Of a stretch of DNA of 64,000 bases, positions 8,194 through 37,917 are shown in pieces. The notes under the pieces are model-generated. The model was not told the DNA's origin. It ran no database searches and worked only from the letters and a program-made list of their open reading frames with translations. The translations under genes were made by a program, and so were the position numbers. Source of the DNA: Bradyrhizobium sp. 186 (lineage in GTDB: Bacteria > Pseudomonadota > Alphaproteobacteria > Rhizobiales > Xanthobacteraceae); the NCBI RefSeq assembly GCF_023101685.1, contig NZ_CP082164.1, forward strand, positions 744,001-808,000, read 5' to 3'. How positions within the stretch are numbered: the first letter of the stretch is position 1; every line of letters begins with the position of its first letter.

Positions 8194-9063
8194 TTAGCAC
8201 GATCCAAAGGAGAGATCGCGGTTCCGCAATCTTCCTCGGCGGATAGCCCACCGTTCATGACTATAGCGCATGACACGATCGAGCGCCGCCCGCGAACCCA
8301 GCGTTTTCCCGGGCATGCAGGCGATGACAGCATTCCGGTCCTCGATGCCTTGCTCATCAACGATCCATGTCCGCAGTTCCTCACCGGCAAGCCGAGCGGC
8401 GATCCGGTCAGGCGTCGGATCAATGTCGTTTGACACCATCACGTTCATCACTATCCGGCCGCCCGGTGCCAAGCGCGAGCGGATTGCGTCGCAGGTCTCG
8501 GCATCGAACTCATCCGTAAACCGAAATCCCGGTCCACCGACGTCGACCGCAATGCCGTCGTAGTAGGTGCGATCATCGAGCACGAATTTCCGAAAGTCGG
8601 AGACAATGCAGGGCAATTCGTCCGGCAGGTCGAAAAACTTGTGTGCAAGTACGAAGCTGATCGGGTTGTTGTCGACGATGGTCAACCTCTTCCCAAGACG
8701 CGACAGTCTTGTCGCAAGATTTCCTCCGCCGCAGCCCAAAACGAGGATTTGTTCGGAGCACGACAGTAGTTCATCCATGAGCTTGACGTAGGTGAATACG
8801 CTTTCGCCATCGGGCGTTGCCTGGCTTTGCCTGACGCCTTCCTCGAAGTACACGCGTGTTCCGTCCCAGGAACACTCAACGATTTCGATCTGCCCGTTCC
8901 TGCCTTGATAACGTCCCAGCAATTTCACGGCAGACAACCACGGTAAGAGTTGAGCATTATAATACATGCACCAAACATCTATTATCATGTGATGCGCGGT
9001 ACGCCAATTGTTTCGGGAATTGCACATAATGTTTCCGTATCCTTGAGAGAAAATCGGGTGCAC
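8194..9063 (-). CDS. Spermidine-synthase-like class I methyltransferase-fold protein
   Basis: A protein of up to 289 residues with an S-adenosylmethionine-fold core: VLGCGGGNLATRLSRLG is motif I, LTIVDNNP carries the acidic residue that binds the nucleoside ribose, and YDGIAVDVGGPG the post-II aspartate. This pattern is typical of spermidine-synthase-like proteins that may transfer aminopropyl or methyl groups; the substrate is unknown. Start is uncertain: GTG at 9063, ATG at 9027 (AAGGA 12 bases upstream) or internal ATGs at 8988 and 8967 are all possible. Codon use is less GC-biased than that of the window's core genes, in keeping with an acquired gene. It lies divergently from an XRE regulator. 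Confidence 0.7.
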   Translation of the reverse strand: MHPIFSQGYGNIMCNSRNNWRTAHHMIIDVWCMYYNAQLLPWLSAVKLLGRYQGRNGQIEIVECSWDGTRVYFEEGVRQSQATPDGESVFTYVKLMDELLSCSEQILVLGCGGGNLATRLSRLGKRLTIVDNNPISFVLAHKFFDLPDELPCIVSDFRKFVLDDRTYYDGIAVDVGGPGFRFTDEFDAETCDAIRSRLAPGGRIVMNVMVSNDIDPTPDRIAARLAGEELRTWIVDEQGIEDRNAVIACMPGKTLGSRAALDRVMRYSHERWAIRRGRLRNRDLSFGSC

Positions 9064-9198: not shown

Positions 9199-9519
9199 AT
9201 GATTACGGCCAACCAACTCAGGGCGGCCCGTGCGCTCCTGAATATAGATCAGCGGCAAACTGCCGATCTTGCAGATCTTTCAGTCCCTACCATCCAGCGC
9301 ATGGAAGCGAGCGACGGCGTTATCCGCGGGAACGTCGATTCTCTGATGAAGCTGGTTTCCGCGCTGGAGAATGCGGGGATCGAATTGATCAATCCGGGCG
9401 TTACGAGCTCAGCCGGTGGCCGCGGCGTTCGCCTCAGGGAACACGTTACAAAGCCAAAGATGAAGAACGTGAAGCAGTCCAAGCCCTCGCCGCGGCGGAC
9501 TTTGGAGCGGACTCGATAA
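9199..9519 (+). CDS. XRE-type helix-turn-helix regulator (paralogue 1)
   Basis: A 106-residue protein starting MITANQLRAARALLNIDQRQ, with a helix-turn-helix at about residues 5-60: LADLSVPTIQRMEAS is the recognition-helix segment. The C-terminal tail is basic (KPKMKNVKQSKPSPRR). The ATG at 9199 has a strong GGAGG site 10 bases upstream, so the in-frame start 51 bases earlier is not needed. It is about 60 percent identical by eye to the regulator at 17278-17598 over the first 80 residues, and both are 106 residues long. The two flank the hydrogenase-related operon, so they may cross-regulate it. Confidence 0.85.
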   Translation: MITANQLRAARALLNIDQRQTADLADLSVPTIQRMEASDGVIRGNVDSLMKLVSALENAGIELINPGVTSSAGGRGVRLREHVTKPKMKNVKQSKPSPRRTLERTR

Positions 9520-10128: not shown

Positions 10129-10662
10129 TCAAGCGGAAGTGGCGCTTTTTGCCGTTCGATCGAGCAGGGAAAGAAGTCCCTGCAAAATCGTAACGGGCGG
10201 TGGCGGACAGCCCGGAATATGAAGATCGACGGGAACGATTTGCGAGACCCCTCCGACCACCGCGTAGCTGCCGGCAAAACACCCGCCATCTCGTGCGCAG
10301 TCTCCGAGGGCAATGACCCATTTCGGGTCCGGGGTCGCATGATAGGTTCGCTCCAGTGCATCGCGCATGTTTTTGGTCACGGGCCCCGTGACCAAGAGAA
10401 CGTCGGCGTGGCGTGGCGAGGCGACGAAGCGGATACCAAAACGTTCGACATCGTAATAGGCATTGCTCAGCGCATGGATCTCCAGCTCGCAACCATTGCA
10501 TGACCCGGCATCGATTTCGCGAATCGAGAGGCTTCTACCGAGCCGTCGCCGTGCGGCACGCTGCAAGGCCGTGGCGAGTTCTTCGACGGCGGCCTCGTCG
10601 AGCGCGGGAGCCTGCTCCGTGAGCGGGCCCCGGAACAAACTTTGAAAGAGAAGTTTGCGCAT
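10129..10662 (-). CDS. hyfI: NuoB/HyfI-like iron-sulfur subunit of a hydrogenase-related complex
   Basis: A 177-residue homologue of the small subunit shared by group 4 hydrogenases and complex I (NuoB). All four cysteines for the proximal [4Fe-4S] cluster are visible: GSCNGCELEIHA (CxxC at about 53-56), GDCARDGGCF and IPGCPPPP. ATG at 10662 sits eight bases after the hyfG-like stop with a GGAGAG site, so it is the last intact gene of the operon. In such complexes this subunit passes electrons between the large subunit and iron-sulfur partners. The normal additional ferredoxin-type subunits (HyfA, HyfH) are absent from this operon. The symbol is by homology only. Confidence 0.9.
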   Translation of the reverse strand: MRKLLFQSLFRGPLTEQAPALDEAAVEELATALQRAARRRLGRSLSIREIDAGSCNGCELEIHALSNAYYDVERFGIRFVASPRHADVLLVTGPVTKNMRDALERTYHATPDPKWVIALGDCARDGGCFAGSYAVVGGVSQIVPVDLHIPGCPPPPVTILQGLLSLLDRTAKSATSA

Positions 10663-10670
10663 CGTCTCTC

Positions 10671-12182
10671 CTACTGGTCCTGCCCGGAATAGGAACAGTT
10701 GAACGATTTGTTGCAGAGCGGGAAGTCGGCGACGATGTTGTTTTCGATGGCCGCTTCGAGCAGCGGCCATTGAAACCAGGATGGATCGCGAAGATGGCAG
10801 CGGTCGGTCCGGCCACCGTCGATCCGGAGCCAGACCAGGATGTCGCCCCTGAAACCTTCGACCAGCGCCATGCCCTCGCGTGGCCCCGCCACGGAGGCGA
10901 TCGGTACGCTCAGCGGGCCGCCGGGAAGCCGCTCCAGAACCTGATTTACCAAGGAAAGACTCTGCTCGACTTCCCGAATCCGGATCCAGATGCGGGCATT
11001 GACGTCACCCTCGTCGAGCACCGGCACCTCGAAACGCAGCTCGCCATACGGCGGATAGCCGGGAGCGCGACGGGCATCGAACGTCCTCCCGGACGCGCGA
11101 CCCACATAGCCTCCCGCACCGTATTGTTTTGCCAGCACCGCCGTGACGATGCCGGTGTCGACGGTACGATCCTGGAGCGAAGCGGTGTTGTCGTAGAGTT
11201 CGACCAAGACGGGAAAGCGAACATGGACATTATCGAGCGCCGCACGGATGCTTGCCTGCCCCTTTTCGTCGAGATCGCGAACCACCCCTCCGGGAACGAT
11301 GACGTCCCGCATCAGGCGGTGACCGAAGGCTGTGTTGGCTGCGCGGAGAATGTCCTCGCGCAGCACGTTGCAGTGGGCCTGCATCAAGCCGAACGACGCG
11401 TCGTTGCAGATCGCGCCGATGTCGCCGAGGTGATTTGCAAGCCGCTCAAGTTCGGCCAGCAGCACCCGCAGCCAGACCGCGCGATCTGGCACCTCCAATT
11501 GCAGGGCGGCCTCGGCGGCTTTCGAAAACGCATAGGCATAGGCGACGGTGCTATCGCCCGATACACGTCCGGCGAGTTGCGCGGCGCGCTCGATGCTGGC
11601 ACCTCGCATCAGCCCTTCGATACCCTTGTGGGTGTATCCCAGCCGCTGTTCCAGCCGGACCACGGTTTCGCCGCTGGCGGTGAACCGGAAATGTCCGGGT
11701 TCGATAATGCCGGCGTGCACCGGACCGACCGCAATCTGGTGCAGGCCATCGCCTTCCGCCGGCAGGAAGCGGTAGGGCGAAGTCGTCGCCAGCCCGTCGA
11801 TTCGATTTCCCAGCGGGGAGCGCACGCCCCAGCGGTTGTGATCGAGCCAGGGGCGGGTGTCGGGCAAGCCTTGCGCCGACAATCCGAACAGATCGCTGAC
11901 CGTGCGCTCCAGCCGAAGCGCCGGCGGATGGTATTTGCCGACGGAAGGGTAAACGAGATTGGGGCAATCCAGGCTGACGACCGCGATATCAGTCGTATCC
12001 CGGTCCATGATCGCCATGTGTACGGTCGAGGGTTCACCCCAGAGGCCAATGAGGGTCCAGCGCCCCTGTGCCAGTTCGCTCGCTGCAAATTGCCAGACGG
12101 CAGCATCGACCACGACGCGCGGCCATGGATGATGCTGCTGGATCTTGCGGCCTTCCAGCATCAGGTCAATCAGCGATGGCAT
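10671..12182 (-). CDS. hyfG: HyfG/HycE-like large subunit without the NiFe site
   Basis: A 503-residue fusion of NuoC-like (1 to about 110) and NuoD/hydrogenase-large-subunit-like (about 150-503) parts; LEQRLGYTHKGIEGLM matches HycE LEQRLGYVHKGTE. In group 4 hydrogenases the first nickel motif is RxCGxCxxxH, but here it reads RVSGDSTVAY (206-215), with both cysteines now serine and the histidine tyrosine. The C-terminal DPCxxC motif reads SFNCSYSGQDQ (493-503), keeping one cysteine, and the protein ends there. So it cannot carry the normal NiFe centre and should not make or oxidise hydrogen. This is the signature of energy-converting hydrogenase-related (Ehr) complexes. Spacing of 17 bases from the upstream gene puts it in the operon. 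Confidence 0.88.
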   Translation of the reverse strand: MPSLIDLMLEGRKIQQHHPWPRVVVDAAVWQFAASELAQGRWTLIGLWGEPSTVHMAIMDRDTTDIAVVSLDCPNLVYPSVGKYHPPALRLERTVSDLFGLSAQGLPDTRPWLDHNRWGVRSPLGNRIDGLATTSPYRFLPAEGDGLHQIAVGPVHAGIIEPGHFRFTASGETVVRLEQRLGYTHKGIEGLMRGASIERAAQLAGRVSGDSTVAYAYAFSKAAEAALQLEVPDRAVWLRVLLAELERLANHLGDIGAICNDASFGLMQAHCNVLREDILRAANTAFGHRLMRDVIVPGGVVRDLDEKGQASIRAALDNVHVRFPVLVELYDNTASLQDRTVDTGIVTAVLAKQYGAGGYVGRASGRTFDARRAPGYPPYGELRFEVPVLDEGDVNARIWIRIREVEQSLSLVNQVLERLPGGPLSVPIASVAGPREGMALVEGFRGDILVWLRIDGGRTDRCHLRDPSWFQWPLLEAAIENNIVADFPLCNKSFNCSYSGQDQ

Positions 12183-12199
12183 GTCGCGTTATTCCTTCG

Positions 12200-13651
12200 C
12201 TATCCAAGGAGACGAGCCACGTTCTGGAACCAGACGACGAGCGGCGCCGGCAGATAGATTCCCGCGCCCAGAACCAGTGAAAGATGCGCAAACATCGGCA
12301 GGTAGGAAGCTTCCGCCGACGCCGTGCTGCCGCGAGGCGCGCCGAAGGCGACGCTGGTCAGGCGCAACGTCAATGCGCCAAACGCCAGCAGAAGCCCGAA
12401 CACCAGCACGATCGCCAGCAGCGGCTGCCGCGCGAAGGTCGAACTCACGACGAGAAATTCGCTCATGAAGATGCCTAGCGGCGGCAGCCCGGCGATCGCG
12501 ACCACGCCCACTACGAAACCCCAGCCAAGCGCCGGGTGGGTGACCGTCAAACCGCGGATCCTGTTGATCCGCTGCGTGCCCTTGATCTGCGAGATATGGC
12601 CGACGGCGTAGAAGATCGCCGACTTGGTCAGGCTGTGCATCACCATGTGCAAGAGTCCGGCGAAATTAGCGAGCGGGCCGCCCATTCCGAACGCAAACAC
12701 GATGATGCCCATGTGTTCGATCGAGGAGTAGGCAAACAGCCGTTTGATGTCGCGACGGCGGTAGAGCATGAACGCCGCGAAAACCAGCGAGACGAGTCCC
12801 ATCGTCACCATCAGCGGCCCCGGGGCGATCGCGTTGGGATTGGCGGCGAGCATGATCTTGAAGCGTAGCAGCGCGTAGAGCGCGACGTTCAGGAGCAGGC
12901 CCGATAGCACGGCCGATATCGGGGTCGGACCTTCGGCGTGGGCATCGGGCAGCCAGGCGTGCAGCGGCGCAACACCAACCTTGGTTCCGTAGCCAAGAAA
13001 CAGGAATATGAAAGCGACATTGAGGAGGGCGGGATCGAAGTCGGCAGCGTGCTGCATCAACAGCGTCCAGACCATGCCGTCCTGACCTTCGCCGACGATC
13101 GGCCGTGCCGCCATATAGACGAGGATCGTGCCGAACAGGGCGAACGCAATTCCGACGCTGCCCAGGATAAAATATTTCCACGCCGCTTCTAGGGCGGCGT
13201 GCGTGCGATAGATACCGACCATCAGCACCGTAGTTAGCGTCGCGATTTCGACCGCGACCCACATCAGGCCGATATTGTTCGACACGAAAGCCAGATTCAT
13301 GCCGAACATCATGGTCTGGAACATGGCATGATAGAAACGCAGGTACACCGGCGTCAACCGGCCTGTCTCAAGTTCGTGCGCGATATAGCTCGCGCTGAAG
13401 ATGCTGGTCGTCGATCCGACGAAGGTGTTGAGCACGATGAAAACGATATTGAGATCGTCGATCAGCACGTATGGCCCAGGCTGCGGTCGGTTGATGACGA
13501 AGAGGGAAAGCGCCGATAGAAAGGTCGCGAGGCTTGCAATGACGTTCAGCCGCGCCGTCAGCCGGTAGCCGGGCAGGATCGCCAGCAGTGCCGCCGAGCC
13601 GATCGGAGTCAGCAGCACCGCCGTCACAGGATCGAAGGAGGGCAAGTTCAT
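12200..13651 (-). CDS. hyfF: HyfF-like proton-channel subunit
   Basis: A 483-residue, about 14-segment membrane protein of the NuoL/M/N-Mrp antiporter family. It has VALYALLRFKIM, the YRRRDIKRLFAYSSIEHMGII motif and HMVMHSLTKSAIFYAVGHI, the conserved lysine-histidine region of the proton channel, plus KVGVAPLHAWLPDAHAEGPTPISAVLSG. It most resembles hydrogenase-4 component F. Its ATG overlaps the hyfE-like stop as ATGA at 13651-13648, so translation is coupled. It should be one of two ion-pumping subunits of the complex (with the hyfB-like protein). Confidence 0.92.
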   Translation of the reverse strand: MNLPSFDPVTAVLLTPIGSAALLAILPGYRLTARLNVIASLATFLSALSLFVINRPQPGPYVLIDDLNIVFIVLNTFVGSTTSIFSASYIAHELETGRLTPVYLRFYHAMFQTMMFGMNLAFVSNNIGLMWVAVEIATLTTVLMVGIYRTHAALEAAWKYFILGSVGIAFALFGTILVYMAARPIVGEGQDGMVWTLLMQHAADFDPALLNVAFIFLFLGYGTKVGVAPLHAWLPDAHAEGPTPISAVLSGLLLNVALYALLRFKIMLAANPNAIAPGPLMVTMGLVSLVFAAFMLYRRRDIKRLFAYSSIEHMGIIVFAFGMGGPLANFAGLLHMVMHSLTKSAIFYAVGHISQIKGTQRINRIRGLTVTHPALGWGFVVGVVAIAGLPPLGIFMSEFLVVSSTFARQPLLAIVLVFGLLLAFGALTLRLTSVAFGAPRGSTASAEASYLPMFAHLSLVLGAGIYLPAPLVVWFQNVARLLG

Positions 13652-14316
13652 CGGCGCTCGCCCCGGTAGTCATCCAGGGTGGAAACGTCGACAGAATCGA
13701 AGCGTTCGCGGATTCGGAACAGGAAGATGCCGATGACGATGAAAGCGATCAGGATCGAGAACGCCACGCTGATCTCGACGACGAGCGGCATACCTTTGGC
13801 ACCGGTCGCCGCCAACACCAGTCCGTTCTCGAGCGACATGAATCCCACGACCTGACTGACGGCGTTGCGGCGCGTCACCATGACCAGAAGTCCGAGCAGT
13901 ACGACCGACAGGGCGAAGGCGAGATCTTCGCGCGCCAGCGGATCGGCCTCGGCGGTCACGCGCAGCATCAGGACCATGGAGAGCGCGACCAACGCCATCC
14001 CGGCCAGCATGGTCGGGCCAATACCCACGGCTGACTCGATGTCGCGATGAATGCCGAGCTGCTTGACGATGCGATGCAGTGCCACCGGAATGACGATCGC
14101 TTTGAACACAAGGGCTATGGCCGCCGTGATGTAGAGATGAGGCGCGTGCTGAACAAAGGCTTGCCAGGCGACGGAAAGCGCAAGCACGACGGCGTGGAGG
14201 GCAAAGACGTTGAGCAGCGAATAAAGCCGGTCCTGGTACAGCATCATGAAGCTGATCAGAACGAGACCGCCCGCGAGCGTATGCGAGATATCGAAGGCGA
14301 GGCTGTGCATCTGCAT
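13648..14316 (-). CDS. hyfE: HyfE-like membrane subunit (NuoK-related)
   Basis: A 222-residue hydrophobic protein with six to seven membrane spans, opening MQMHSLAFDISHTLAGGLVL. The later stretch RNAVSQVVGFMSLENGLVLAATG carries the buried glutamate typical of NuoK/HyfE subunits of ion-pumping complexes. Start ATG at 14316 shares one base with the hyfC-like stop (TGATG), and its stop overlaps the hyfF-like start by four bases. This tight overlap shows that the gene belongs to the same operon and assembles into the same complex. Confidence 0.9.
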   Translation of the reverse strand: MQMHSLAFDISHTLAGGLVLISFMMLYQDRLYSLLNVFALHAVVLALSVAWQAFVQHAPHLYITAAIALVFKAIVIPVALHRIVKQLGIHRDIESAVGIGPTMLAGMALVALSMVLMLRVTAEADPLAREDLAFALSVVLLGLLVMVTRRNAVSQVVGFMSLENGLVLAATGAKGMPLVVEISVAFSILIAFIVIGIFLFRIRERFDSVDVSTLDDYRGERR

Positions 14317-15272
14317 CAGAAACTCCTCGATACGAATAGGAGGAGGGTTCCGAGCAAGCCCAGCATGAGGGCGGCCCCGAGGAATTGCGGAATGCGGAAA
14401 ATTCTCATTTTGGCGGAGGCGGTCTCGAACAGTGCGAGCAGGAAGCCGGCGGCAGCGAGTTTGACGAGATAGGCGCCGGCGCCAACGGCGTATGCCAATG
14501 AACCGGTGCCAAACAGGGCGATCTTCCAGGGCAAGAACACGCAGGCGATCAGCGAGATGTAGAGCAGGAGCTTGAGAAACGCGCCGAATTCGATCATCGC
14601 GAGATGGCGGCCGGAATATTCGAGAACCATCGCCTCATGCACCATCGTGAGTTCCAGATGCGTGGCCGGGTTGTCGACCGGGATACGCGCGTTCTCGGCG
14701 AGCGCCACCATGATCAGTGCGATGACCGCCATTCCCAGTGACACCCGTAGTCCGACATAGGACGACGCCATGAAATTGGCCACCGTTGAAAGCTGGGTTG
14801 AGCCGGCAACAAGCGCCATGCAAAAGAAAATCAGCAGCATCGCAGGCTCCGCCAGTGCCGCGATCATGACTTCGCGGCTGGAGCCGATGCCGCCAAAACT
14901 GGTGCCGACGTCCATTCCCGCGAGCGCCAGAAAGAAGCGCGCGCTTCCGAGCAGAGCAACGATGGCGATCAGATCGGCGGTCCAGTTGAACAGCAGCCCT
15001 GTCGCAAAGGTCGGCACCAGGGCGGCGGCAACCCAGATCGCGGCAAAGGTCACATAGGGTGTCACGCGGAACAGCCACGAGGCGTTGTCGGCCAGCACCA
15101 CCTCCTTGCGGAGCAAGCGCAGGAGGTCGCGATACGGCTGAAAGACCGACGCGCCCTGCCGCAGCACCAACCGCGCCTTGATCTTGCGCACGAAGCCGGT
15201 CAGCAGCGGCGCGAGCACGAGCACCAGCAGCATCTGCACACCCTGCACCACGATGTCCGAGATCACGACCAT
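14316..15272 (-). CDS. hyfC: HyfC-like membrane subunit (NuoH-related)
   Basis: A 318-residue membrane protein of the NuoH/HycD/HyfC family. Conserved features are the cytoplasmic loop with RQGASVFQPYRDLLRLLRKE, then GTSFGGIGSSREVMIAALAEPAML and the acidic DNPATHLELTMVHEAMVLEYSG, which forms the connection to the peripheral arm. About eight membrane segments can be counted. The start overlaps the hyfB-like stop by 10 bases, so the genes are translated as a set. Confidence 0.92.
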   Translation of the reverse strand: MVVISDIVVQGVQMLLVLVLAPLLTGFVRKIKARLVLRQGASVFQPYRDLLRLLRKEVVLADNASWLFRVTPYVTFAAIWVAAALVPTFATGLLFNWTADLIAIVALLGSARFFLALAGMDVGTSFGGIGSSREVMIAALAEPAMLLIFFCMALVAGSTQLSTVANFMASSYVGLRVSLGMAVIALIMVALAENARIPVDNPATHLELTMVHEAMVLEYSGRHLAMIEFGAFLKLLLYISLIACVFLPWKIALFGTGSLAYAVGAGAYLVKLAAAGFLLALFETASAKMRIFRIPQFLGAALMLGLLGTLLLFVSRSF

Positions 15273-17278
15273 ATCGCGAGCACCAGGAGCAAGGTGACGA
15301 GGGTGGCAAACACGAGACTGAGATATCGCCGGATGGTCAGGAACTGGACGCGGTTGAGCCGATCGGCTGAAACGCTGACCGCGCCCGCGATTGGTTGATA
15401 CATTCCCTCCCAGACCAGATCATGCAGTTCGATCCGCAGCCGCGCCGGCCTGGTTTCTCCGGGTGCCGGCATGTCGACATGGTCGCGGGCGTGGAACACG
15501 AGTGTGCCGAAAACACGGCGGATCGGCTGTGCGAAGCTTCCGGCCGAATATTGGGCCGCAGGCGTCGGGTCGGAGAAACCGCAGCCCCAGGCGGGTCCCC
15601 GCCGCAGCGCATGCGAGGCGAAGCGATGGATAACGAAGACGGCCAAGGAAGCCGATATCGTGATGAATAGCATCACCAGCAATCCGTTGTACGAACTGCG
15701 GCTCTCCGCAATCGGCACGATTGAAAGCCAGGGTTCATTGGCCTGGATCGGCATGCGGCCACCGAGGATCTCGATCATGATCCGCGAAAGCGCATCGATC
15801 ACCAGTCCCGGCAGGATTCCGGCCAGTAAGCAGATGGCGGCGAGGACGAACATGGCAGTGAGCGAGTAACGGTCGACCTCGTGGGCGGTTTGCGCGGCCG
15901 TGCTGCGCGGTCGCCCGAGAAACGTCACGCCAAACATCTTGACGAAGCATGCCGCGGCCAACGCAGCCGCCAGCGCCAATAGCGCGCCGACAGCGGGTAC
16001 CGTGATCTTCAGCGCCCATTGCGGCAACTCCGGACTTTGCAGCACGGCCTGGAACATGAGCCATTCCGAAACGAAGCCGTTGAAGGGCGGCAATGCCGAG
16101 ATCGCGACGCAGCCAACGAGAACGACGAAGCTGGTGAGCGGCATGCGATGAATGAGACCACCCAGCCTGTCCATGTCCCGCTCGCCCGTCGAGGTCAGGA
16201 CCGCGCCGGCTCCGAAAAACAGCAGGCTCTTGAAAAAGGAATGATTGAGAACGTGAAACAGCGCCGCCGTGAAGGCCAACGCCGCCTCGAGCTTCAGCCC
16301 GTTGGCCTGGAAAGCCAGGGCGAGGCCGAGGCTGGCAAAGATGACCCCAACGTTTTCAATCGTACTATACGCGAGCAGGCGCTTCAGATCCTTTTCCATC
16401 ATGGCGTAGAGGATTCCCATGACGGCGGTGATGCCACCGAGGATCAGCACGATCACACTTGCCCACCAGATCGGTTGTCCCAGCAGGTCGAAGATGACGC
16501 GAATAAAGCCGTAGATCGCGACTTTGGTCATGACGCCGCTCATCAGCGCTGAAACGTGGCTTGGCGCGGCGGGATGTGCGAGCGGCAGCCACACATGCAA
16601 CGGCACAAGGCCGGCCTTTGAACCGGCTCCGAGCACCATCAGGATCAATACCAATGCCGCGGCGTACGGTGTGTGTTGGGCGGCGCGGATGGCCGCGAAT
16701 CCGTAGTCACCCGTCGGTCCCGCCAGCAGGCCGAAAGCCAGCAGCAATGCGAGCGTGCCGAAGCTTGCCATCACCAGGTAAACATAACCCGCCTTCGCGT
16801 TGCCCGGTTCACGATGGTGCGATATGACCAGCGCCCAGGAGGCGAGCGACATGAATTCCCAGCAAAGCAGATAGGAAAACGCGTCATCCGCCAGGACCAC
16901 AAGATTCATCCCGGCCAGAAAGGCAGGGAAGAAGGGAAGGACGCGGTGCGGCGCCGGATCGTGGTGGCCATAGCCAAGACCGTAAAGGCTGGCCGATGCG
17001 CCTCCCAGATTGACGACGACAAGGAAGAACGCCGCCAGCGCATCCAGGCGGAAATGGGCGCCAAGCCACGGCAGCCCGATCGGCAGGATCAGGTCGGAGA
17101 CATTCAGAACGTCACCGACCAGATAGCGAATCGACCCGAACAATGCGACCAGGGAAACAGCCATAGTGACGCTGTAAACGATTGCCGTGGAACTCTTTGC
17201 GCGGCTCAGAACGATCGCAAGCCCGGCGATCCCCAACAATCCCGCGGCACATGACATCTGCAAAACGACGGGAGCCAT
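15263..17278 (-). CDS. hyfB: HyfB-like antiporter/proton-channel subunit
   Basis: A 671-residue protein with an N-terminal antiporter-like domain of about 14 membrane segments and a C-terminal extension ending in further segments. Hallmarks: HVWLPLAHPAAPSHVSALMSGVMTKVAIYG, MMEKDLKRLLAYSTIENVG and HVLNHSFFKSLLFFGAGAV, which carries the lysine-rich proton pathway. The start is ATG at 17278, whose A is the last base of the upstream XRE gene's stop (TGATG), so the regulator and complex are co-translated. A TTG three bases earlier is also possible. It is the first structural gene of the operon. Confidence 0.92.
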   Translation of the reverse strand: MAPVVLQMSCAAGLLGIAGLAIVLSRAKSSTAIVYSVTMAVSLVALFGSIRYLVGDVLNVSDLILPIGLPWLGAHFRLDALAAFFLVVVNLGGASASLYGLGYGHHDPAPHRVLPFFPAFLAGMNLVVLADDAFSYLLCWEFMSLASWALVISHHREPGNAKAGYVYLVMASFGTLALLLAFGLLAGPTGDYGFAAIRAAQHTPYAAALVLILMVLGAGSKAGLVPLHVWLPLAHPAAPSHVSALMSGVMTKVAIYGFIRVIFDLLGQPIWWASVIVLILGGITAVMGILYAMMEKDLKRLLAYSTIENVGVIFASLGLALAFQANGLKLEAALAFTAALFHVLNHSFFKSLLFFGAGAVLTSTGERDMDRLGGLIHRMPLTSFVVLVGCVAISALPPFNGFVSEWLMFQAVLQSPELPQWALKITVPAVGALLALAAALAAACFVKMFGVTFLGRPRSTAAQTAHEVDRYSLTAMFVLAAICLLAGILPGLVIDALSRIMIEILGGRMPIQANEPWLSIVPIAESRSSYNGLLVMLFITISASLAVFVIHRFASHALRRGPAWGCGFSDPTPAAQYSAGSFAQPIRRVFGTLVFHARDHVDMPAPGETRPARLRIELHDLVWEGMYQPIAGAVSVSADRLNRVQFLTIRRYLSLVFATLVTLLLVLAIWS

Positions 17279-17598
17279 CAAGCGCCGCCCCTCGTTCGAT
17301 TCGATGCTTTGTGTTCTGGCTGATTGTCCAAATCGGCTTTAGCTGAACCCGAATTCATCTTCAGTCGCACGCCTCGTCCCTGCGAATTGCTGACGGCTCC
17401 TTCGTCGATCATCTCGATCCCGGCGGCGTCGAATGCGGCAATTAACTTGACCAGCGAATCGACATTGCCTCGGACTATCGTATGGCTTGCCTCCATTCGC
17501 TGGATTGTAGGCACGGAGAGTTTGGAGAGTGCTGCTAGCCGGCGCTGATCGATGCCGAGAAGCAGCCTGGCAGCCCGCAATTGAGCTGCCGTGATCAT
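17278..17598 (-). CDS. XRE-type helix-turn-helix regulator (paralogue 2), first gene of the operon
   Basis: A 106-residue protein, MITAAQLRAARLLLGIDQRR, with the recognition region LSVPTIQRMEASHTIVRGNVDS. It matches the regulator at 9199-9519 closely over residues 1-80 (QLRAAR.LL, DQR, LSVPTIQRMEAS, GNVDSL.KL, GRGVRL) and has the same length. Its TGA shares a base with the hyfB-like ATG, so it is translationally tied to the energy-converting complex. An earlier in-frame ATG (17637) is possible, but paralogue 1 supports 17598. It probably autoregulates from the AT-rich DNA just upstream. Confidence 0.87.
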   Translation of the reverse strand: MITAAQLRAARLLLGIDQRRLAALSKLSVPTIQRMEASHTIVRGNVDSLVKLIAAFDAAGIEMIDEGAVSNSQGRGVRLKMNSGSAKADLDNQPEHKASNRTRGGA

Positions 17599-18045: not shown

Positions 18046-18987
18046 TCATCCTCGATTCGATAACATCCTCTGGAGGATTTCCTCGATCGAATGTGGCGAA
18101 ATGCCTAGCTCGGCAAATCCTGGCATCTCCGGTGATGGCACGGAGTCGATCCGCATCAGCTCCACCTGATTACGAGTAAGGGGTGAACGAGGGAGTATTT
18201 CGGAGGCCGATGCCAGCGCGTGCCAGATGGCAAACGGCATTGGAATCAGGAGAGGCGCGAGGCCAGCTTGATGCGCGATCGCTCTGAGCAGTTGCTCGTA
18301 AGAGTAGGGGGTCGGGCCGCCGAATTCAAAGACCGTCGGGTAAGTCTCGGCTCGCTCCATGATTCGGGCAACCGCCTCCGCAACGTCTTCGACATAGGCC
18401 GGTTGCAATCTGGTCCGGCCGCGGCCGAACATCGGATAGATCGGAAGCCGAAGGAGCTTGAGGATGGTGTTGAGAAACGCGTCGTCCGGTCCGAACATCA
18501 CAGCCGGGCGGACGACAAATGCATCGGCGAATTCCGCGCGGACTGCCTGTTCACCTTCGCCGCGCTTTCGGATGTAGCAGGATGGCGAGGCGGCGTCGGC
18601 ACCGATCCCCGAAACGTGAACAAGCCGTTCGACTCCAGCCCGGTGGGCCTGGGCTGCTACCCGTTGAGCCGACTCGACGTGAACGGAGTGAAAAGTCTCC
18701 AGTCCGCGCTCGCGATAAAGGCTGACCGCGTTTATGACGCCGTAGGCGCCAACCAGCGCATCCGCGACCGATCGCTCGTCGTGAATGTTGGCCTCTACGG
18801 ATTGAAGTTGCGGATTCTCGGGACAAGACTGGCTGTATCCCCCGTCCGGATGCCTTGATGCGATCCGGACGGAAAATTCGCGATGGCGCAGATGGCGAAC
18901 GATGCGGTTGCCGAGAAAGCCCGTTCCGCCGAACACGGTGATGGTGCGACCGCTCGTTGCTGCTTTGGCTAGCGTTCGCGGCTCCAT
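18046..18987 (-). CDS. NDUFA9-like NAD(P)-binding SDR-fold protein
   Basis: A 313-residue atypical short-chain dehydrogenase. The Rossmann motif is VFGGTGFLGNRIVRHL (about 18-33) and the later block is RPAVMFGPDDAFLNTI with VEDVAEAVARIM and FEFGGPTPYSYEQLL. These are hallmarks of the 'complex I NDUFA9 subunit' family found in bacteria; the mitochondrial relative is an assembly or stability subunit of complex I, and a tight NADPH binder. The start overlaps the end of the DUF2189 gene by 19 bases, so it is probably cotranscribed. Its family link to complex I makes a role with the hydrogenase-related complex or the oxidase in the same island attractive but unproven. Confidence 0.82.
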   Translation of the reverse strand: MEPRTLAKAATSGRTITVFGGTGFLGNRIVRHLRHREFSVRIASRHPDGGYSQSCPENPQLQSVEANIHDERSVADALVGAYGVINAVSLYRERGLETFHSVHVESAQRVAAQAHRAGVERLVHVSGIGADAASPSCYIRKRGEGEQAVRAEFADAFVVRPAVMFGPDDAFLNTILKLLRLPIYPMFGRGRTRLQPAYVEDVAEAVARIMERAETYPTVFEFGGPTPYSYEQLLRAIAHQAGLAPLLIPMPFAIWHALASASEILPRSPLTRNQVELMRIDSVPSPEMPGFAELGISPHSIEEILQRMLSNRG

Positions 18988-19865
18988 GGGAAGAGTGAGG
19001 CCGGGAAATCCGCCGCATAGCGGTGACCTATCGGTGGGCGGGGCTGTTCTTCCGGTGGATTCGGGTCAGGCTCGACCACCTTCCGATAAAGATGCCAGGT
19101 GGCATGACCGAGCACCGGCAGCACGACGGCAAGACCGACGAAGAACGGTAGCGAACCGATCGCCAGCAGTGCCGCAACAACCAGACCCCATACCGCCATC
19201 GGAACTGGATTCTCCCTCACGGCCCGCAGCGACGTCCGGATTGCGTCGATCGCAGTCGCGTGCCGGTCGAGCATCAGCGGAAACGACACTACACTGACGC
19301 ACAGGGCCGCGACGGCGAACAGGAAGCCAACGCCGCAGCCGACGATGATGAGCGACCATCCTTCCGGCGTCGTCAAAACACGCGTTGCGAAGTCAGGGAT
19401 GCTTGCAGCAGGGGCGTGGCCGAAAGTTGCAATGTAGATCGCGTCCGCGGCGGCGATCCAGACCCCGAACAGAACCAGCAAGAGGATGCCGAGTTCGAGC
19501 ATGGCGCCGAAGGACGGTGCGCGCAACACGTGCATGGCATCCCATGCTGCTGCTTCCTCTCCGCGCTCGCGGCGCCGGCTGAGTTCGTAGAGGCCGAGCG
19601 CGGCGAAAGGACCGATCAAGGTAAAGCCGGCGGCGAGCGGAAAGAGCAGCGGCAGCACCGAATAGCCGATCACAAGTCTGAACAGGACAAGTCCGAGGAC
19701 GGGATAAATCACGCACAGGACGACGGCGTGAGTTGGGATGGCCTTGAAGTCTTCCCAGCCCAGGCGCAACGCGTTGCCCAGGTCGGAAAGGCTGATCTTG
19801 CGAACGACAAAGGCGGTAGAGACGCCAAATACGTCTAGTTTGGGTCTTGCGAATACTGTGGCCAT
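18969..19865 (-). CDS. DUF2189 membrane protein
   Basis: A 298-residue protein with six or so hydrophobic segments, starting MATVFARPKLDVFGVSTAFV. The first segment RLGWEDFKAIPTHAVVLCVIYPVLGLVLF and the second part with FPLMLDRHATAIDAIRTSLRAVRENP match DUF2189. The ATG at 19865 has an AAGGAG site nine bases upstream; an upstream in-frame start would add about 32 residues without support. It is cotranscribed with the NDUFA9-like gene and divergent from the oxidase operon. Function unknown; several DUF2189 genes sit beside respiratory oxidase genes in alphaproteobacteria. Confidence 0.8.
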   Translation of the reverse strand: MATVFARPKLDVFGVSTAFVVRKISLSDLGNALRLGWEDFKAIPTHAVVLCVIYPVLGLVLFRLVIGYSVLPLLFPLAAGFTLIGPFAALGLYELSRRRERGEEAAAWDAMHVLRAPSFGAMLELGILLLVLFGVWIAAADAIYIATFGHAPAASIPDFATRVLTTPEGWSLIIVGCGVGFLFAVAALCVSVVSFPLMLDRHATAIDAIRTSLRAVRENPVPMAVWGLVVAALLAIGSLPFFVGLAVVLPVLGHATWHLYRKVVEPDPNPPEEQPRPPIGHRYAADFPASLFPWSRER

Positions 19866-20420
19866 GGCTCCGGTCTCCTTGCTTGTGACCGCAGGGGAAC
19901 GGAGCGCACCCAAAACGCACGCATCCGCCTCATCCGCGAAAATCGCGATCGACCCCGGCAAATCAGGTTCAACAAGAAGAAGCTTTGCCGGACGACACTT
20001 GTCGCGACCGGTACAGTGAAATTAGTCCGATACACGATAGAAGCAAGATATAGCGCTCGCGGTTGGGTGATTTGTGCATCTGCACACATCGATTATTGCG
20101 CTGCATCACCAAACGCCCGGTGCCAATGGATGCTCATCGGATTGCGCGTCAGACTCGCGAAACCAGGGCGTGACATGGCCGTTTATTGAGCTATTGACGG
20201 TAGGCTCAGCGGGGGCCATCTTAAAGTTCTGAACGTCCCAAGCTCCCGTGAAATGAGCGGTCGTGGCGTGCAGTTCGTGTCAACCCTTTACGTCGCGACC
20301 GGTCGAATGGGCGAGGCAAGCGGCACGATGATGGCGAAGATGAAATTCGCCATCGCGACAGACGTGAGCTCCGCCCTTTAACTCGTATCCGCAGCCTTTG
20401 GTGGCAAGGATGCATAAAGG
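19866..20420. promoter_or_regulatory. Divergent promoter region upstream of the oxidase operon
   Basis: About 550 bases without a supported gene. A perfect dyad, TGTGCA, TC, TGCACA, lies at 20073-20086, flanked by GGTGAT and ATCACC. It is a candidate operator, possibly controlling both directions. No FNR/FixK-type TTGAT-N4-ATCAA box is seen. Confidence 0.45.
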
Positions 20421-21254
20421 ATGACTGTAGCGATCATACTGCTTTTGGTAGCGATCGCCTCGGTGCTGTTTCACATTTTCAGCCCGTGGTGGTGGACCCC
20501 GCTCGCCTCAAACTGGCGCTACATCGACGACACGATCACCCTGACATTCTGGATCACCGGGGCGGTTTTCTTCGCGGTCGTCGCATTCATGGCCTATTGC
20601 GTCTTCCGCTTTCGACACACGGAGGGAAGGCGGGCAGACTACAATCCCGAAAACAAGAAGCTCGAATGGTGGCTCAGCGTGGGGACTGCAATCGGCGTCG
20701 CAGCCATGCTGGCACCCGGCCTGGTTGTCTGGCACCAGTTCGTCACTGTTCCGGCCGATGCGACCGAGGTCGAGGTCATGGGACAGCAGTGGCAATGGAG
20801 CTATCGGCTCCCCGGAAAGGATGGCCGGCTCGGGACTTCCGATGCCCGCAATGTCGGTTCCGACAATCCCATGGGGTTGAGTCCCGACGATCCCGCCGGA
20901 CAAGACGATGTCGTCATTCAAAATGACGATTTGCACCTGCCGCTTGGGAAACCGGTGAAGCTATTGCTCCGCTCGATTGACGTCCTGCATGATTTCTATG
21001 TGCCGGAGTTTCGGGCGAAGATGGATATGATACCGGGCTCGGTCACATATTACTGGTTCACGCCCACGCGCACCGGAACATTCGAAGTTCTCTGCGCGGA
21101 ACTCTGCGGTGCCGCGCACGCGCAGATGCGGAGCAAGGTCATCGTAGACGAAGAGAAAGACTATCACGCGTGGCTGGAGAAGCAGCGGACGTTCGCCGAG
21201 TTGTCACAGCAGCGCAACGTCGCGAAAGCGGCGTACAAGTCAGGAAGCGAATGA
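20421..21254 (+). CDS. coxB: Cytochrome c oxidase subunit II (CuA protein)
   Basis: A 277-residue subunit II. It has two membrane helices in the first 105 residues, followed by a periplasmic cupredoxin domain. The CuA ligands are all present: the His in SIDVLHDFYVPEF and CAELCGAAHAQM (C-x3-C-x3-H-x3-M). The EVEVMGQQWQWSYRLPG stretch is the usual electron-entry region. No haem c motif (CxxCH) is present, so this form takes electrons from a separate cytochrome c. A hydrophobic start rather than a classical lipoprotein signal is visible. First gene of a II-I-III-III-IV operon, the same gene order as the alternative coxMNOP cluster described in Bradyrhizobium japonicum. Confidence 0.92.
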   Translation: MTVAIILLLVAIASVLFHIFSPWWWTPLASNWRYIDDTITLTFWITGAVFFAVVAFMAYCVFRFRHTEGRRADYNPENKKLEWWLSVGTAIGVAAMLAPGLVVWHQFVTVPADATEVEVMGQQWQWSYRLPGKDGRLGTSDARNVGSDNPMGLSPDDPAGQDDVVIQNDDLHLPLGKPVKLLLRSIDVLHDFYVPEFRAKMDMIPGSVTYYWFTPTRTGTFEVLCAELCGAAHAQMRSKVIVDEEKDYHAWLEKQRTFAELSQQRNVAKAAYKSGSE

Positions 21255-21329
21255 AAATATCGGCGAGGAGCGCTGCATAGCAGACGGCGAACTCTTCGCT
21301 GAAGAGAGAGAGACCAAGGAGGAATTCCG

Positions 21330-23105
21330 ATGGTCGATGTCCCGTTTGACACCGTCGCAGGCGTCCCGCCCGCCGAAGTGGGCGAGGTCGAGCTTTATCA
21401 TCCGAGAAGCTGGTGGACGAGGTACGTCTTTTCGCAGGACGCCAAGGTCATCGCCATCCAGTACTCGATCACGGCGATGTCCATTGGAATGGTTGCGCTG
21501 GTGCTGTCATGGCTGATGCGGCTGCAACTCGGATTTCCCGGCACGTTTTCGTTCATCGATCCGAACCAGTATCTCCAGTTCATCACCATGCACGGCATGA
21601 TCATGGTGATCTATCTTCTCACCGCGCTGTTTCTAGGCGGCTTCGGCAACTACCTTATCCCGCTGATGGTCGGCGCCCGGGACATGGTGTTCCCCTATGT
21701 GAACATGCTGAGCTACTGGGTCTACCTGCTCGCGGTCGTGGTGCTGGCCTCGACCTTTTTCGTGCCCGGCGGGCCCACCGGCGCCGGCTGGACGCTGTAC
21801 CCGCCGCAAGCGATTCTCTCCGGTACTCCCGGGCAGGATTGGGGCATCGTGCTCATGCTGGCCTCCCTGATCCTGTTCATAATCGGCTTCACCATGGGCG
21901 GGCTGAATTACGTGGTGACGGTGCTGCAGGCGCGCACACGCGGCATGACGTTGATGCGTTTGCCCTTGACGGTGTGGGGCATCTTCACGGCCACCGTCAT
22001 GGCGCTGCTGGCCTTCCCGGCGCTGCTCGTCGCCTCGGTGATGTTGCTGCTCGACCGCCTGCTGGGAACCAGCTTCTTCATGCCCACGCTGGTCGAGATG
22101 GGCACGTTGACGAAATATGGCGGCGGCAGCCCGATCCTGTTCCAGCACCTGTTCTGGTTCTTCGGACATCCAGAAGTCTACATCGTGGCGTTGCCGGCCT
22201 TCGGCATCATTTCCGATCTGATCAGCGTCCACGCGCGGAAGAACATCTTCGGCTATCGCATGATGGTCTGGGCGATCGTGGCAATCGGCGCCCTCAGCTT
22301 CGTCGTATGGGCGCACCACATGTATGTGAGCGGCATGCACCCGTATTTCGGGTTCTTCTTCGCCACCACGACGCTCATCATCGCCATCCCGACCGCGATC
22401 AAGGTTTACAACTGGGTGCTGACCCTTTGGCGAGGCGACATTCATCTCACCATCCCGATGCTGTTCGCGTTGGCGTTCATCATCACCTTCGTAAACGGCG
22501 GCCTGACCGGTCTGTTTCTCGGCAACGTGGTCGTAGACGTTCCGTTGTCGGACACGATGTTCGTTGTCGCCCATTTTCACATGGTGATGGGTATTGCGCC
22601 GATCATGGCCGTGTTCGGCGGACTCTATCATTGGTACCCGAAAGTCACCGGACGAATGCTCAATGAGGCGCTTGGACGATTCCACTTCTGGGTCTCGTTC
22701 CTCGGAGCCTACGCGATTTTCTTCCCCATGCACTATCTGGGTCTGTTGGGGATGCCCCGCCGCTATCATGACATCGGCGAAACGGCCTTCGTTCCGGCAT
22801 CCGCCCATGACCTCAATGCGTTCATGAGCGTGGCGGCCCTGATCGTCGGCTTCGCCCAGCTCGTGTTCCTGTTCAATCTGATCTGGAGCCTGTTCAAAGG
22901 AAAAGAGGCCGGTGGCAATCCCTGGGGAGCCGCGTCGCTGGAATGGCAAACGCCAGAGACCCCGCCGGGGCATGGCAATTGGGGCAAGGATCTTCCGATC
23001 GTCTATCGCTGGGCCTACGATTACAGCGTCCCCGGCGCCGCCACGGATTTCGTGCCGCAAAATGAACCGCCGGCTGGATTGTCGGCGCGCGGGTCGCACC
23101 CATGA
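21330..23105 (+). CDS. ctaD: Haem-copper oxidase subunit I
   Basis: A 591-residue subunit I with about 12 membrane helices. The haem a ligands are in TMHGMIMVIY and HFHMVMG, CuB ligands are in FFGHPEVYIV and WAHHMYVSG, and Tyr of HPEVY supplies the cross-linked tyrosine. The glutamate of HPEVY and aspartate of GARDMVFPYVN mark the D-channel, so it is A1-type and likely proton-pumping. The start at 21330 has an AAGGAGG site. It follows subunit II by 75 bases and overlaps the first subunit III start by four bases (ATGA at 23102-23105). Confidence 0.94.
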   Translation: MVDVPFDTVAGVPPAEVGEVELYHPRSWWTRYVFSQDAKVIAIQYSITAMSIGMVALVLSWLMRLQLGFPGTFSFIDPNQYLQFITMHGMIMVIYLLTALFLGGFGNYLIPLMVGARDMVFPYVNMLSYWVYLLAVVVLASTFFVPGGPTGAGWTLYPPQAILSGTPGQDWGIVLMLASLILFIIGFTMGGLNYVVTVLQARTRGMTLMRLPLTVWGIFTATVMALLAFPALLVASVMLLLDRLLGTSFFMPTLVEMGTLTKYGGGSPILFQHLFWFFGHPEVYIVALPAFGIISDLISVHARKNIFGYRMMVWAIVAIGALSFVVWAHHMYVSGMHPYFGFFFATTTLIIAIPTAIKVYNWVLTLWRGDIHLTIPMLFALAFIITFVNGGLTGLFLGNVVVDVPLSDTMFVVAHFHMVMGIAPIMAVFGGLYHWYPKVTGRMLNEALGRFHFWVSFLGAYAIFFPMHYLGLLGMPRRYHDIGETAFVPASAHDLNAFMSVAALIVGFAQLVFLFNLIWSLFKGKEAGGNPWGAASLEWQTPETPPGHGNWGKDLPIVYRWAYDYSVPGAATDFVPQNEPPAGLSARGSHP

Positions 23106-27848: not shown

Positions 27849-28125
27849 CGCCCCATTCCTGTTATGACTAGGCCGCCCCGCGAAATTGCGTAACTCTGCA
27901 ACAACAATTTGCTGCCCCAACGGTGACTCTGGCGCAGCGAGAACTCATACTCCAGTACTGATCGACTCTAACAAAGTACCACCGAGGGCTGTGCTTCGTC
28001 CAGCGAGGCAGCAGATTCAGAATGCCTCAAGGCCGATTGCCAAGAAGCCTTCGGCTGGTAATCTTAGGGTCTAATCGCCCGCTGGGGATGGCCTGCCATT
28101 GTCCCGAGACATTGAAAGCGCTGGG

Positions 28126-31100: not shown

Positions 31101-31182
31101 CGAGAGCGGCGCGCTGCCGCTCAGGCAAAAGGCCGAGGCGATGCTGAACGAGATGCTCGCCCGGGGCGACGAGCTCACCTGA
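28126..31182 (+). CDS. Zinc-ribbon / class III nucleotide cyclase / AAA ATPase / TPR signalling protein
   Basis: About 1018 residues from ATG at 28126 (a TTG at 28099 is possible). The N-terminus has a zinc ribbon (HCFACQST and CTKCGAAV). A class III cyclase domain follows: LRADVIDSTGL with the metal-binding aspartates, KELGDGLAAVFG, VRVGLHSGHV. Then an AAA_16-type ATPase: LLGDAGIGKSRLAHEF (Walker A) and LLIEDLHWIDRASD (Walker B). The C-terminal half is alpha-helical TPR-like, and no DNA-binding domain is seen. Together these suggest a cyclic-nucleotide-producing STAND sensor. From about 30.5 kb the codon use changes abruptly to strongly GC-biased codons, whereas the upstream part is much less biased. 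Partner genes are unclear. Confidence 0.85.
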   Translation: MHCFACQSTIDIGESRCTKCGAAVLRREDPESERRFVTILRADVIDSTGLVAELEPEEAVSRLEPALAAMRGAVRQFGGIVSKELGDGLAAVFGAPIADDNHAPLACHAAIELVRRVGSLGDPGLQVRVGLHSGHVIAYMVASEFSKVYEIGGVAQHLAARLESAAEANQIYVSEACQNLAEGHVRFESLGRKALRGFSEPLPVYRLLGASDLSSWRVRRARSMSRFVDRTIERALLGRAAERAGASRQTVLLLGDAGIGKSRLAHEFAQGLRAGGWRLVDAECSPNLQGAPFSTLKRLLLSILGAAAKDPGQAGDLRTELPVVQQRAVDAVLDLPIADPQWDELEPHARGRAICDASCAIVERVARDQRTVLLIEDLHWIDRASDTIVAALAGLQTPNLLVLFTTRPNGMPVWIARCHAEIVAMRPLDDDSGRAMLADMLGPSDTNADLKDRIISHTANVPLFIEEVCRSLKDSGMLRGQWGDLALMRPVEELGIPSSIQGVIAARLDRVSRQERLVLQIAAALGQRSSEAMLRKAAALSEDVLQDCLSALDRAELLVNVDSELDRSFEFPHEMVRQVTYDSMVEKVRDNVHARILASMESDGSAFEEPDKLCYHATRAKDWDKAYTYGRGAARKSMTRSAFADAASYFVVAMNSLDKAGLTRSREANAIDLRLEARLAFMASGQVSDWLDHGKEAERRASAIDDIERKVAAMTVSAAAQNFYGTPIEAVAIGKEVVRLAEEWGNLGWLNAAEYGLGQAYFLAGRYRQAEQAFGRVHSQLQGPDASAPIGTPPKYTLLLCCMMKSFTHTVMGELDAAEQLQQQAVAIAEETNRPYDRVAAAYSGGWLMLGRNDPAAAAAILEEGFVLAQKHGIRLFVPVLGCHLGMAYLEQGLFDRARGMLGEAREEAKAVGYTSAVLRSSIYLALATSRLGDVQAAQNMLREARNTARQQGFSGLEAEALFGEAVVTPASSEENKAAILAALRGTIAIASESGALPLRQKAEAMLNEMLARGDELT

Positions 31183-37840: not shown

Positions 37841-37867
37841 TCCAGGACCTTGCAAGTTTCGGGACCA

Positions 37868-37895
37868 CGTCCCGGACGTGAGATCGTCCGGGACG
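37868..37895 (-). terminator. Hairpin after the binding-protein gene
   Basis: CGTCCCGGAC and GTCCGGGACG form a ten-base-pair stem with an eight-base loop between the substrate-binding-protein stop and the fusion permease. It has no T-run, so it may be an mRNA-stabilising or partial attenuator element that favours expression of the binding protein. Confidence 0.6.
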
Positions 37896-37917
37896 CTTGA
37901 GTCTTGCGTCGCGACAA

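Follow-up and report, generated by a model that had tools for sequence, protein, structure and literature searches.

A 64,000-nucleotide stretch of the Bradyrhizobium sp. 186 genome (assembly GCF_023101685.1, contig NZ_CP082164.1, positions 744,001 to 808,000 of the forward strand; hereafter the window) carries a compact operon related to hydrogenase-4, in which all four ligands of the NiFe centre are gone from the large subunit and other conserved residues stand around their positions. On the minus strand, from 17598 to 10129, an XRE-family regulator gene is followed by six genes in the order hyfB-C-E-F-G-I (Table 1), with adjacent genes overlapping or lying at most 20 bases apart and the stop codon of the XRE gene overlapping the start of hyfB (TGATG). 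A group-4-type large subunit free of NiFe-binding cysteines, a 4Fe-4S small subunit, and Mrp-antiporter/NuoL-like and NuoH-like membrane subunits are thus united in one operon, which almost certainly encodes a six-subunit energy-converting-hydrogenase-related (Ehr) complex descended from group-4 NiFe hydrogenases. The original prediction, made from the letters of the window, had named the same type of complex and given 10129..17598 as the range of the hyf operon; the range holds for the six hyf genes, and its upper end (17598 to 17278) is the separate XRE gene.

The start of hyfI is most likely not at 10770 but at the ATG at 10662, directly after hyfG, because annotated relatives of 177 residues begin there and the 213-residue open reading frame (ORF) from 10770 overlaps hyfG. 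Among the ORFs of the operon there is no gene for HyfA, HyfH, a formate dehydrogenase or an NADH module (NuoE/F/G), and a motif scan found no ORF with a ferredoxin-type motif within 6 kb, which bears out the earlier statement that HyfA, HyfH and formate dehydrogenase are missing. Among NCBIfam profiles, HyfC and HyfG hit complex I models with scores under the cut-off, and HyfI clears the threshold of one NuoB subfamily model. The close named relatives of HyfG are from Bradyrhizobium, and a HyfG search of the 10.77-Mb host genome matched the HyfG large subunit and NuoD.

Table 1 Features of the Ehr locus in the window.
Feature	Coordinates	Strand	Remarks
Small XRE-family helix-turn-helix regulator, 106 aa	17278..17598	-	First operon gene; PF01381 E=2e-5, 25 bits, cut-off 23
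hyfB-like antiporter subunit, 671 aa	15263..17278	-	NCBIfam NF005086 899 bits, cut-off 667
hyfC-like (NuoH/HycD type) subunit, 318 aa	14316..15272	-	PF00146 E=4.5e-37; best PDB match E. coli formate hydrogenlyase HycD E=5.1e-43
hyfE-like subunit, 222 aa	13648..14316	-	NF008556 E=4.7e-24, under its cut-off
hyfF-like antiporter subunit, 483 aa	12200..13651	-	NF005043 914 bits, cut-off 533
hyfG-like large subunit (EhrL), 503 aa	10671..12182	-	NiFe ligands replaced: S208, S211, S497, G500
hyfI-like small subunit (EhrS), 177 aa	10129..10662	-	PF01058; HycG E=5.3e-40; MbhJ E=2.5e-38
Second XRE helix-turn-helix gene, paralogous	9199..9519	+	Past operon 3' end, opposite strand
Spermidine-synthase-fold (SAM-binding type) gene	8194..8967	-	Accompanies Ehr in part of Bradyrhizobium

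In place of the group-4 NiFe hydrogenase motifs RxCGxCxxxH and DPCxxC, HyfG has, in an open frame, RVSGDSTVAY (206-215) and SFNCSYSG (493-500). Alignment to E. coli HycE puts S208, S211, S497 and G500 at the four ligand cysteines, and the sole cysteine remaining in the motifs, C496, aligns with the proline position rather than a ligand position. Hyc/Hyf large subunits carry a C-terminal tail that is cleaved in maturation; HyfG ends three residues past G500 and has no such tail, which is present in the formate hydrogenlyase (FHL)-type relatives L080, L081 and L083 and likewise absent from a cysteine-bearing relative, L059. That all four ligands are gone had been claimed from the window, with a misreading of the motif region named as what could overturn the claim. 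The same replacement, with small variation, is found in the other 122 rows of an alignment of 123 Ehr large subunits (window included; some genomes appear twice, from two collections), and a reading error is therefore excluded.

The earlier wording, that the subunit has lost the NiFe site, understates what has happened there. Across the 120 near full-length HyfG rows (window included), D210 and D254 are invariant, K492, N495 and G500 are each present in 119 with a gap in the remaining row, and the other pocket positions follow with S208 in 118 (2 Cys), G209 in 118, S497 in 115 and S211 in 110. Thinning to below 80% identity, which left 85 of the 123 rows, gave the same pattern, and FHL-type proteins and NuoD lack D210, K492, N495 and G500 at the matching positions. 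A separate re-reading of 21 loci, including 13 Burkholderiales plasmids, one Rhodococcus plasmid and others (the alignment already contained L067 and L159, and L167 and L103 are one and the same record), found D210, K492, N495 and G500 kept in every one. Judged by this conservation, the old NiFe pocket is a different conserved set of residues, not a site in decay. Structurally, the single-chain model of HyfG (mean pLDDT 85.5) has HycE as its best PDB match (TM 0.88, E=2.6e-30), followed by E. coli complex I chains.

Around the altered pocket, the machinery of a hydrogenase appears to be retained. In the FHL structure, the catalytic glutamate is E193, the canopy consists of R478, D529 and S283, and the proton path runs over H284, E437 and R395, according to the portion of that report available to us (PMC9474812); the HyfG equivalents by alignment are E161, then R445, N495 and N250, and then H251, E404 and R362. 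Of these, H251, R362 and E404 are kept in 120 of the 120 rows and E161 and R445 in 119; in 119, too, N495 stands where hydrogenases and complex I have the canopy aspartate. In HyfI, the cluster cysteines are of the hydrogenase-type CxxC + C + C arrangement (one 4Fe-4S site) and all four occur in 116/116 near full-length rows, as the original prediction had it for the window. Its view that the membrane channels look intact agrees with the pump residues: the transmembrane helix 5 Glu and the helix 7, 8 and 12 Lys of HyfB are conserved in 102-103 of 103 rows, and the helix 5 Glu, helix 7 Lys and helix 12 His/Lys of HyfF in 117-118 of 118. The helix 8 Lys of HyfF is replaced by Asn, as it is in two FHL-type relatives. 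In HyfC, the acidic residues D100, D121, E134, E142 and E193 are found in 109/109 rows.

The quinone-site hallmarks of complex I are absent from HyfG, which has I160/E161 instead of His in the beta1-beta2 loop and N495 for the canopy Asp (roles as given in the part of PMC9474812 consulted). HyfI does not have the consecutive cysteines of the complex I cluster N2 and carries CxxC instead. The position that we take to be that of the quinone-site Tyr of complex I is G209 in HyfG. As far as residues can tell, then, the wiring is hydrogenase-type, the pump is apparently intact, and the pocket is that of neither a hydrogenase nor complex I.

Evolutionarily, the Ehr large subunits form one clade (SH-like approximate likelihood ratio test, SH-aLRT, 100) in a quick maximum-likelihood tree of 55 rows, mostly from one phylum and with SH-aLRT support and no bootstrap; together with the loss of the NiFe ligands from the large subunit and the six-gene hyf set, this confirms the Ehr-type identity first proposed. 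The clade groups with a cysteine-bearing type (SH-aLRT 96), and E. coli-type FHL falls outside. This sister type is represented by L059, a 10,170-bp contig of the Bradyrhizobium bin G132, with the motifs RICGVCSVAH and ELCYSC, the latter having Glu-Leu in place of the usual Asp-Pro ahead of the last cysteines. It has D254, K492 and the B-C-E-F-G-I gene order in common with Ehr, and no ORF with a ferredoxin-type motif lies on the contig, which may be a binning contaminant because its named relatives are Betaproteobacteria, Acidobacteria and others. The simplest reading, which the tree suggests, is that the cysteines were lost once, when the six-gene set was already in place, and that re-specialisation followed. 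Separately, genome G183 encodes a very divergent cysteine-less large subunit (L082, 25% identity) that reached no placement in the tree and beside which, of the window's proteins, only the small subunit was matched; it may mark another way in which the NiFe site was lost.

Ehr complexes are common, and are often labelled hydrogenase, HypE or NADH dehydrogenase. HyfG matches occur in 70 of 146 Bradyrhizobium genomes (E<=1e-60) and in 66 of 299 genomes of a phylum sample (E<=1e-40); eight of the latter are weak (E>1e-55), and three of the four weak ones inspected have the cysteines. A further 61 plasmid records match (E<=1e-50; motif not read in each), 19 of them typed as conjugative. Bradyrhizobium sequences stand in two places of the tree with a branch of 99 between them, and on a Rhodococcus plasmid an Ehr operon (motif read) neighbours an IS110 transposase gene and, at a greater distance, integrase genes; the operon therefore moves between genomes. 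Its order is stable, B-C-E-F-G-I being found at 99 of 122 loci and an in-order subset at the other 23, of which 21 sit at the end of the available sequence. The Rhodococcus plasmid operon has hyfI placed first.

No gene outside the six is a constant neighbour of Ehr, and two recur beside it, the XRE gene and a spermidine-synthase-like gene. A same-strand relative of the former precedes hyfB at 24/39 and 34/59 loci with at least 900 bases upstream (two sets that share some genomes) and at none of 13 Burkholderiales loci; it is probably the operon's own regulator. In the window, each end of the operon has an XRE gene next to it, and the two are paralogues (9199-9519 on the plus strand and 17278-17598 on the minus strand).

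The second companion, encoded at 8194-8967 in the window and probably a separate transcription unit, gave a good model (pLDDT 89.4) that matches the probable spermidine synthase 3gjy best (E=4e-14), and the 50 Foldseek matches listed are all spermidine synthase or polyamine aminopropyltransferase entries. A profile of 11 relatives also points to the aminopropyltransferase fold (E=4.6e-7); the single protein by itself reaches Pfam Spermine_synth only at E=0.3. The catalytic motif of spermidine synthase is DxxD; in the Bradyrhizobium protein D142 is kept and the second Asp is replaced (DVGG). Because this second catalytic Asp is missing and alpha- and betaproteobacterial members are only 19-31% identical, we withhold the name spermidine synthase.

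In Bradyrhizobium, 30 matches (E<=1e-25) fall in 28 genomes, namely 28 of 70 with Ehr (Ehr+) versus 0 of 76 without (Ehr-), and each lies within 10 kb of hyfG (one, in G138, is a fragment); Fisher tests on this and on the other Bradyrhizobium comparisons below ignore shared ancestry. Distant relatives lie by Ehr in L094 and L129 (Mesorhizobium) and in L061 (same taxonomic order), with none by Ehr in the Mesorhizobium loci L091 and L096. Among 15 Burkholderiales plasmid records listed, 13 were inspected (Variovorax and Paraburkholderia aromaticivorans noticed first, the other 11 taken from the match list), and 12 have a match (E<=1e-5) within 10 kb of hyfG, that of L184 being weak (3e-10); L185 has none near hyfG. 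Seven of these Burkholderiales records and G386 (chosen for its match) hold 14 spermidine-synthase-domain matches over their whole length, of which 11 fall no more than 11.5 kb from hyfG where chance would place 0.3; the distance was set post hoc and neighbouring copies are not independent. The gene is upstream of Ehr in some loci and downstream in others. No match (E<=1e-5) appeared in the available flanks of Rhizobium, Azospirillum and Rhodopseudomonas Ehr loci, and the gene is thus an optional partner. No paper linking Ehr to spermidine synthase was found in the open-access literature searched.

Within 6 kb in the available sequence, an ORF with two ferredoxin-type motifs lies at 2 of 123 Ehr loci (L076 and L113) compared with 3/3 FHL-type controls, and an ORF with any such motif at 4 of 123. 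In Variovorax, a gene annotated as a 4Fe-4S binding protein is located about 3.4 kb upstream of hyfB. Small genes 3' of hyfI in Azospirillum, Variovorax and Paraburkholderia are not common to these groups. Close to Ehr, YoaK-family genes are met repeatedly in Rhizobium rhizogenes, Paraburkholderia and Burkholderia, and YjdM zinc-ribbon genes in Burkholderia and Rhodococcus (loci L172, L174, L178, L179, L187 and L180). A dependence of Ehr on hydrogenase maturation was considered and rejected, 25 of the 70 Ehr+ Bradyrhizobium genomes having no PF00374 match (E<=1e-30). The host of the window does have a full-length PF00374 hydrogenase at another locus, so absent maturation is not an argument here. 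As to a low-oxygen link through the Burkholderia literature, a term search of PMC3759415, PMC6127331 and PMC9104464 found no hydrogenase or hyf genes named.

Elsewhere in the window, an NAD(P)-binding SDR-type gene, a DUF2189 gene, and genes for cytochrome oxidase subunits II and I lie upstream of the Ehr operon (18046-23105). Further on, an 865-aa frame (35717-38314, minus strand) has both a BPD_transp_2 domain (branched-chain amino acid permease) and a strictosidine-synthase-like/SMP-30 domain and could be a gene fusion, and a 1027-aa frame (28099-31182, plus strand) combines adenylate cyclase, AAA ATPase and TPR domains.

Functionally, we posit that the complex is probably a redox-driven proton pump that retains hydrogenase-type wiring and has a new substrate where the NiFe site used to be. 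A soluble low-potential electron carrier encoded outside the operon would dock on HyfI and hand electrons singly to its lone 4Fe-4S cluster, from which they would pass to the old NiFe pocket of HyfG (S208, D210, S211, D254, K492, N495 and G500), where a small acceptor would be reduced. Protons for that reduction would arrive by the kept hydrogenase path (E161, H251, E404, R362 and R445), and charge changes in the pocket would act through the acidic channel of HyfC on HyfE, HyfF and HyfB, leading to proton movement across the membrane. Ion pumping, electron transfer, the lack of H2 activity, the direction of electron flow and the acceptor are all features that we infer from sequence. A bolder proposal, which we regard as rather unlikely in full, is that Ehr forms a separate pump class whose pocket was rebuilt (G209-D210, D254, K492, N495, G500 and mostly S208 and S211) to reduce or oxidise a small molecule, and that in several lineages a spermidine-synthase-fold, S-adenosylmethionine (SAM)-dependent partner makes or modifies this molecule or the complex.

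Several observations count against a redox-driven pump with a re-specialised pocket. No donor or acceptor gene is constantly linked to Ehr in the locus neighbourhoods, ten annotated plasmid loci included, and in Bradyrhizobium there is no clear co-occurrence with NiFe hydrogenase (45/70 Ehr+ vs 39/76 Ehr-, p=0.13), nifH (43/70 vs 50/76, p=0.61) or form I CO dehydrogenase (31/70 vs 22/76, p=0.06). Of the 21 re-read loci, 6 have Ala in place of S208 and 7 have Thr in place of S211, so that D210, K492, N495 and G500 are the firm part of the pocket and the serines are frequent, not strict. Ranked by conservation, the two motif windows come 42nd of 345 and 19th of 344; they are strongly but not uniquely conserved, and part of this may therefore be structural. 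Confidence in the HyfG model is low at 134-182 (including E161) and 499-503 (including G500), and the proposed pocket supposes that D210, K492, N495 and the other residues share one cavity. Additionally, the tree is a quick build rooted on the single long NuoD branch, and L067 and L159 have no detectable hyfI and hyfB, respectively, despite flanking sequence.

Ehr could instead be a quinone reductase resembling complex I, pumping protons as electrons pass from ferredoxin (or similar) to a quinone site where HyfG, HyfI and HyfC meet. In its favour, HyfG is a homologue of NuoD, the quinone-site subunit (29% identity to the host's own), and HyfC is NuoH-like, E. coli complex I chains come after HycE in the fold search, H185 of HyfG is kept in 120/120 rows, and the host respires (cox genes at 20421-23105). 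The residues at the site itself, however, do not fit, with the hydrogenase-like E161 beside I160 where complex I has His, N495 at the canopy Asp, CxxC in place of N2-type cysteines in HyfI and, at the presumed Tyr position, G209, and we consider this reading unlikely. An ion channel, antiporter or membrane-potential sensor with HyfG and HyfI as a structural cap, non-redox or nearly so, would accommodate the missing NiFe ligands and the lack of a constantly linked redox enzyme; it seems improbable when all four HyfI cysteines are kept in 116/116 rows and both the replacement residues and the proton path are strongly constrained. A formate dehydrogenase partnership is more doubtful still. It has been proposed for Margulisbacteria and Saganbacteria (in the part of PMC6349859 consulted), and the accessible text on Geobacter reports Ehr subunits as more abundant on formate than under hydrogen-containing conditions (PMC7894505), but no formate dehydrogenase gene lies in the operon or is annotated at the ten annotated plasmid loci, and H2 formation is not credible without the cysteines. 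Fdh-alpha-type genes occur in all 146 Bradyrhizobium genomes, Ehr+ and Ehr- alike, and therefore give no signal on such a partnership. Least credible, to the point of being nearly negligible, is a decaying remnant of hydrogenase-4, as the missing HyfA, HyfH, formate dehydrogenase and NiFe ligands might suggest: the frames are open, the six-gene set is found in Alpha- and Betaproteobacteria and on a Rhodococcus plasmid, matches occur on 61 plasmid records, and the replacement residues are conserved. Decay and assembly error were both rejected on the replacement being common, with small variation, to the 123 aligned Ehr rows.

Ehr complexes, for which PMC6349859 and PMC6728331 cite Marreiros et al. 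2013, are described, in the portions of the literature consulted, as suspected redox-coupled pumps of undetermined function (PMC6349859, PMC6728331, PMC10284858, PMC7304191, PMC7894505). Like the operon described here, they combine group-4-like large and small subunits free of NiFe cysteines with Mrp/NuoL-like pump subunits, although the formate dehydrogenase partner proposed elsewhere has no linked counterpart at the window operon. The nearest precedents by layout are the hyfBCEFGI clusters of Cupriavidus metallidurans CH34 (Rmet_4666-4671) and C. eutrophus H16 (H16_A2196-2201), noted in 2010 and judged, in the passage available, unlikely to serve lithotrophic growth (PMC2864759). They have the same six genes in an order identical to that of the window, with 44% identity for the CH34 large subunit; the CH34 locus differs in having no relative of the window's XRE gene and a spermidine-synthase-like gene downstream on the same strand. 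In Mycobacterium tuberculosis, Rv0081-Rv0087 are seven consecutive genes, a regulator and hyc-family EHR genes, with no functional hydrogenase according to the part of PMC6728331 consulted, and the excerpt of PMC6177252 has Rv0081 as a regulator; compared by description, not by sequence, that regulator is of Smt/ArsR type, whereas the window has an XRE gene.

E. coli formate hydrogenlyase/hydrogenase-4 (HycE, PDB 7z0s) resembles HyfG in fold, in a fused NuoC-like N-domain and in the proton-path residues, and its cluster type is that of HyfI, but it has the four NiFe cysteines, the C-terminal tail, ferredoxin-type subunits and FdhF. Respiratory complex I (NuoB, C/D, H, L/M/N) has superfamily and membrane-arm logic in common with the operon, which differs in having no NADH module, no quinone-site hallmarks and a hydrogenase-type cluster motif. 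The MBS/Mbx sulfane sulfur reductase is defined by sulfane sulfur reduction at an altered site of its large subunit. Solving Ehr would also help to tell the quinone-dependent parts of the complex I machine from the rest. With a conserved pocket, a single origin and a spermidine-synthase-fold companion, the open Ehr question becomes specific and testable. The Ehr class and the hyfBCEFGI set were already known and the window operon is a further member, to which the present analysis adds that the residues of the replaced pocket are conserved, that they contrast with those of a quinone site, and that a spermidine-synthase-fold gene accompanies Ehr in some lineages.

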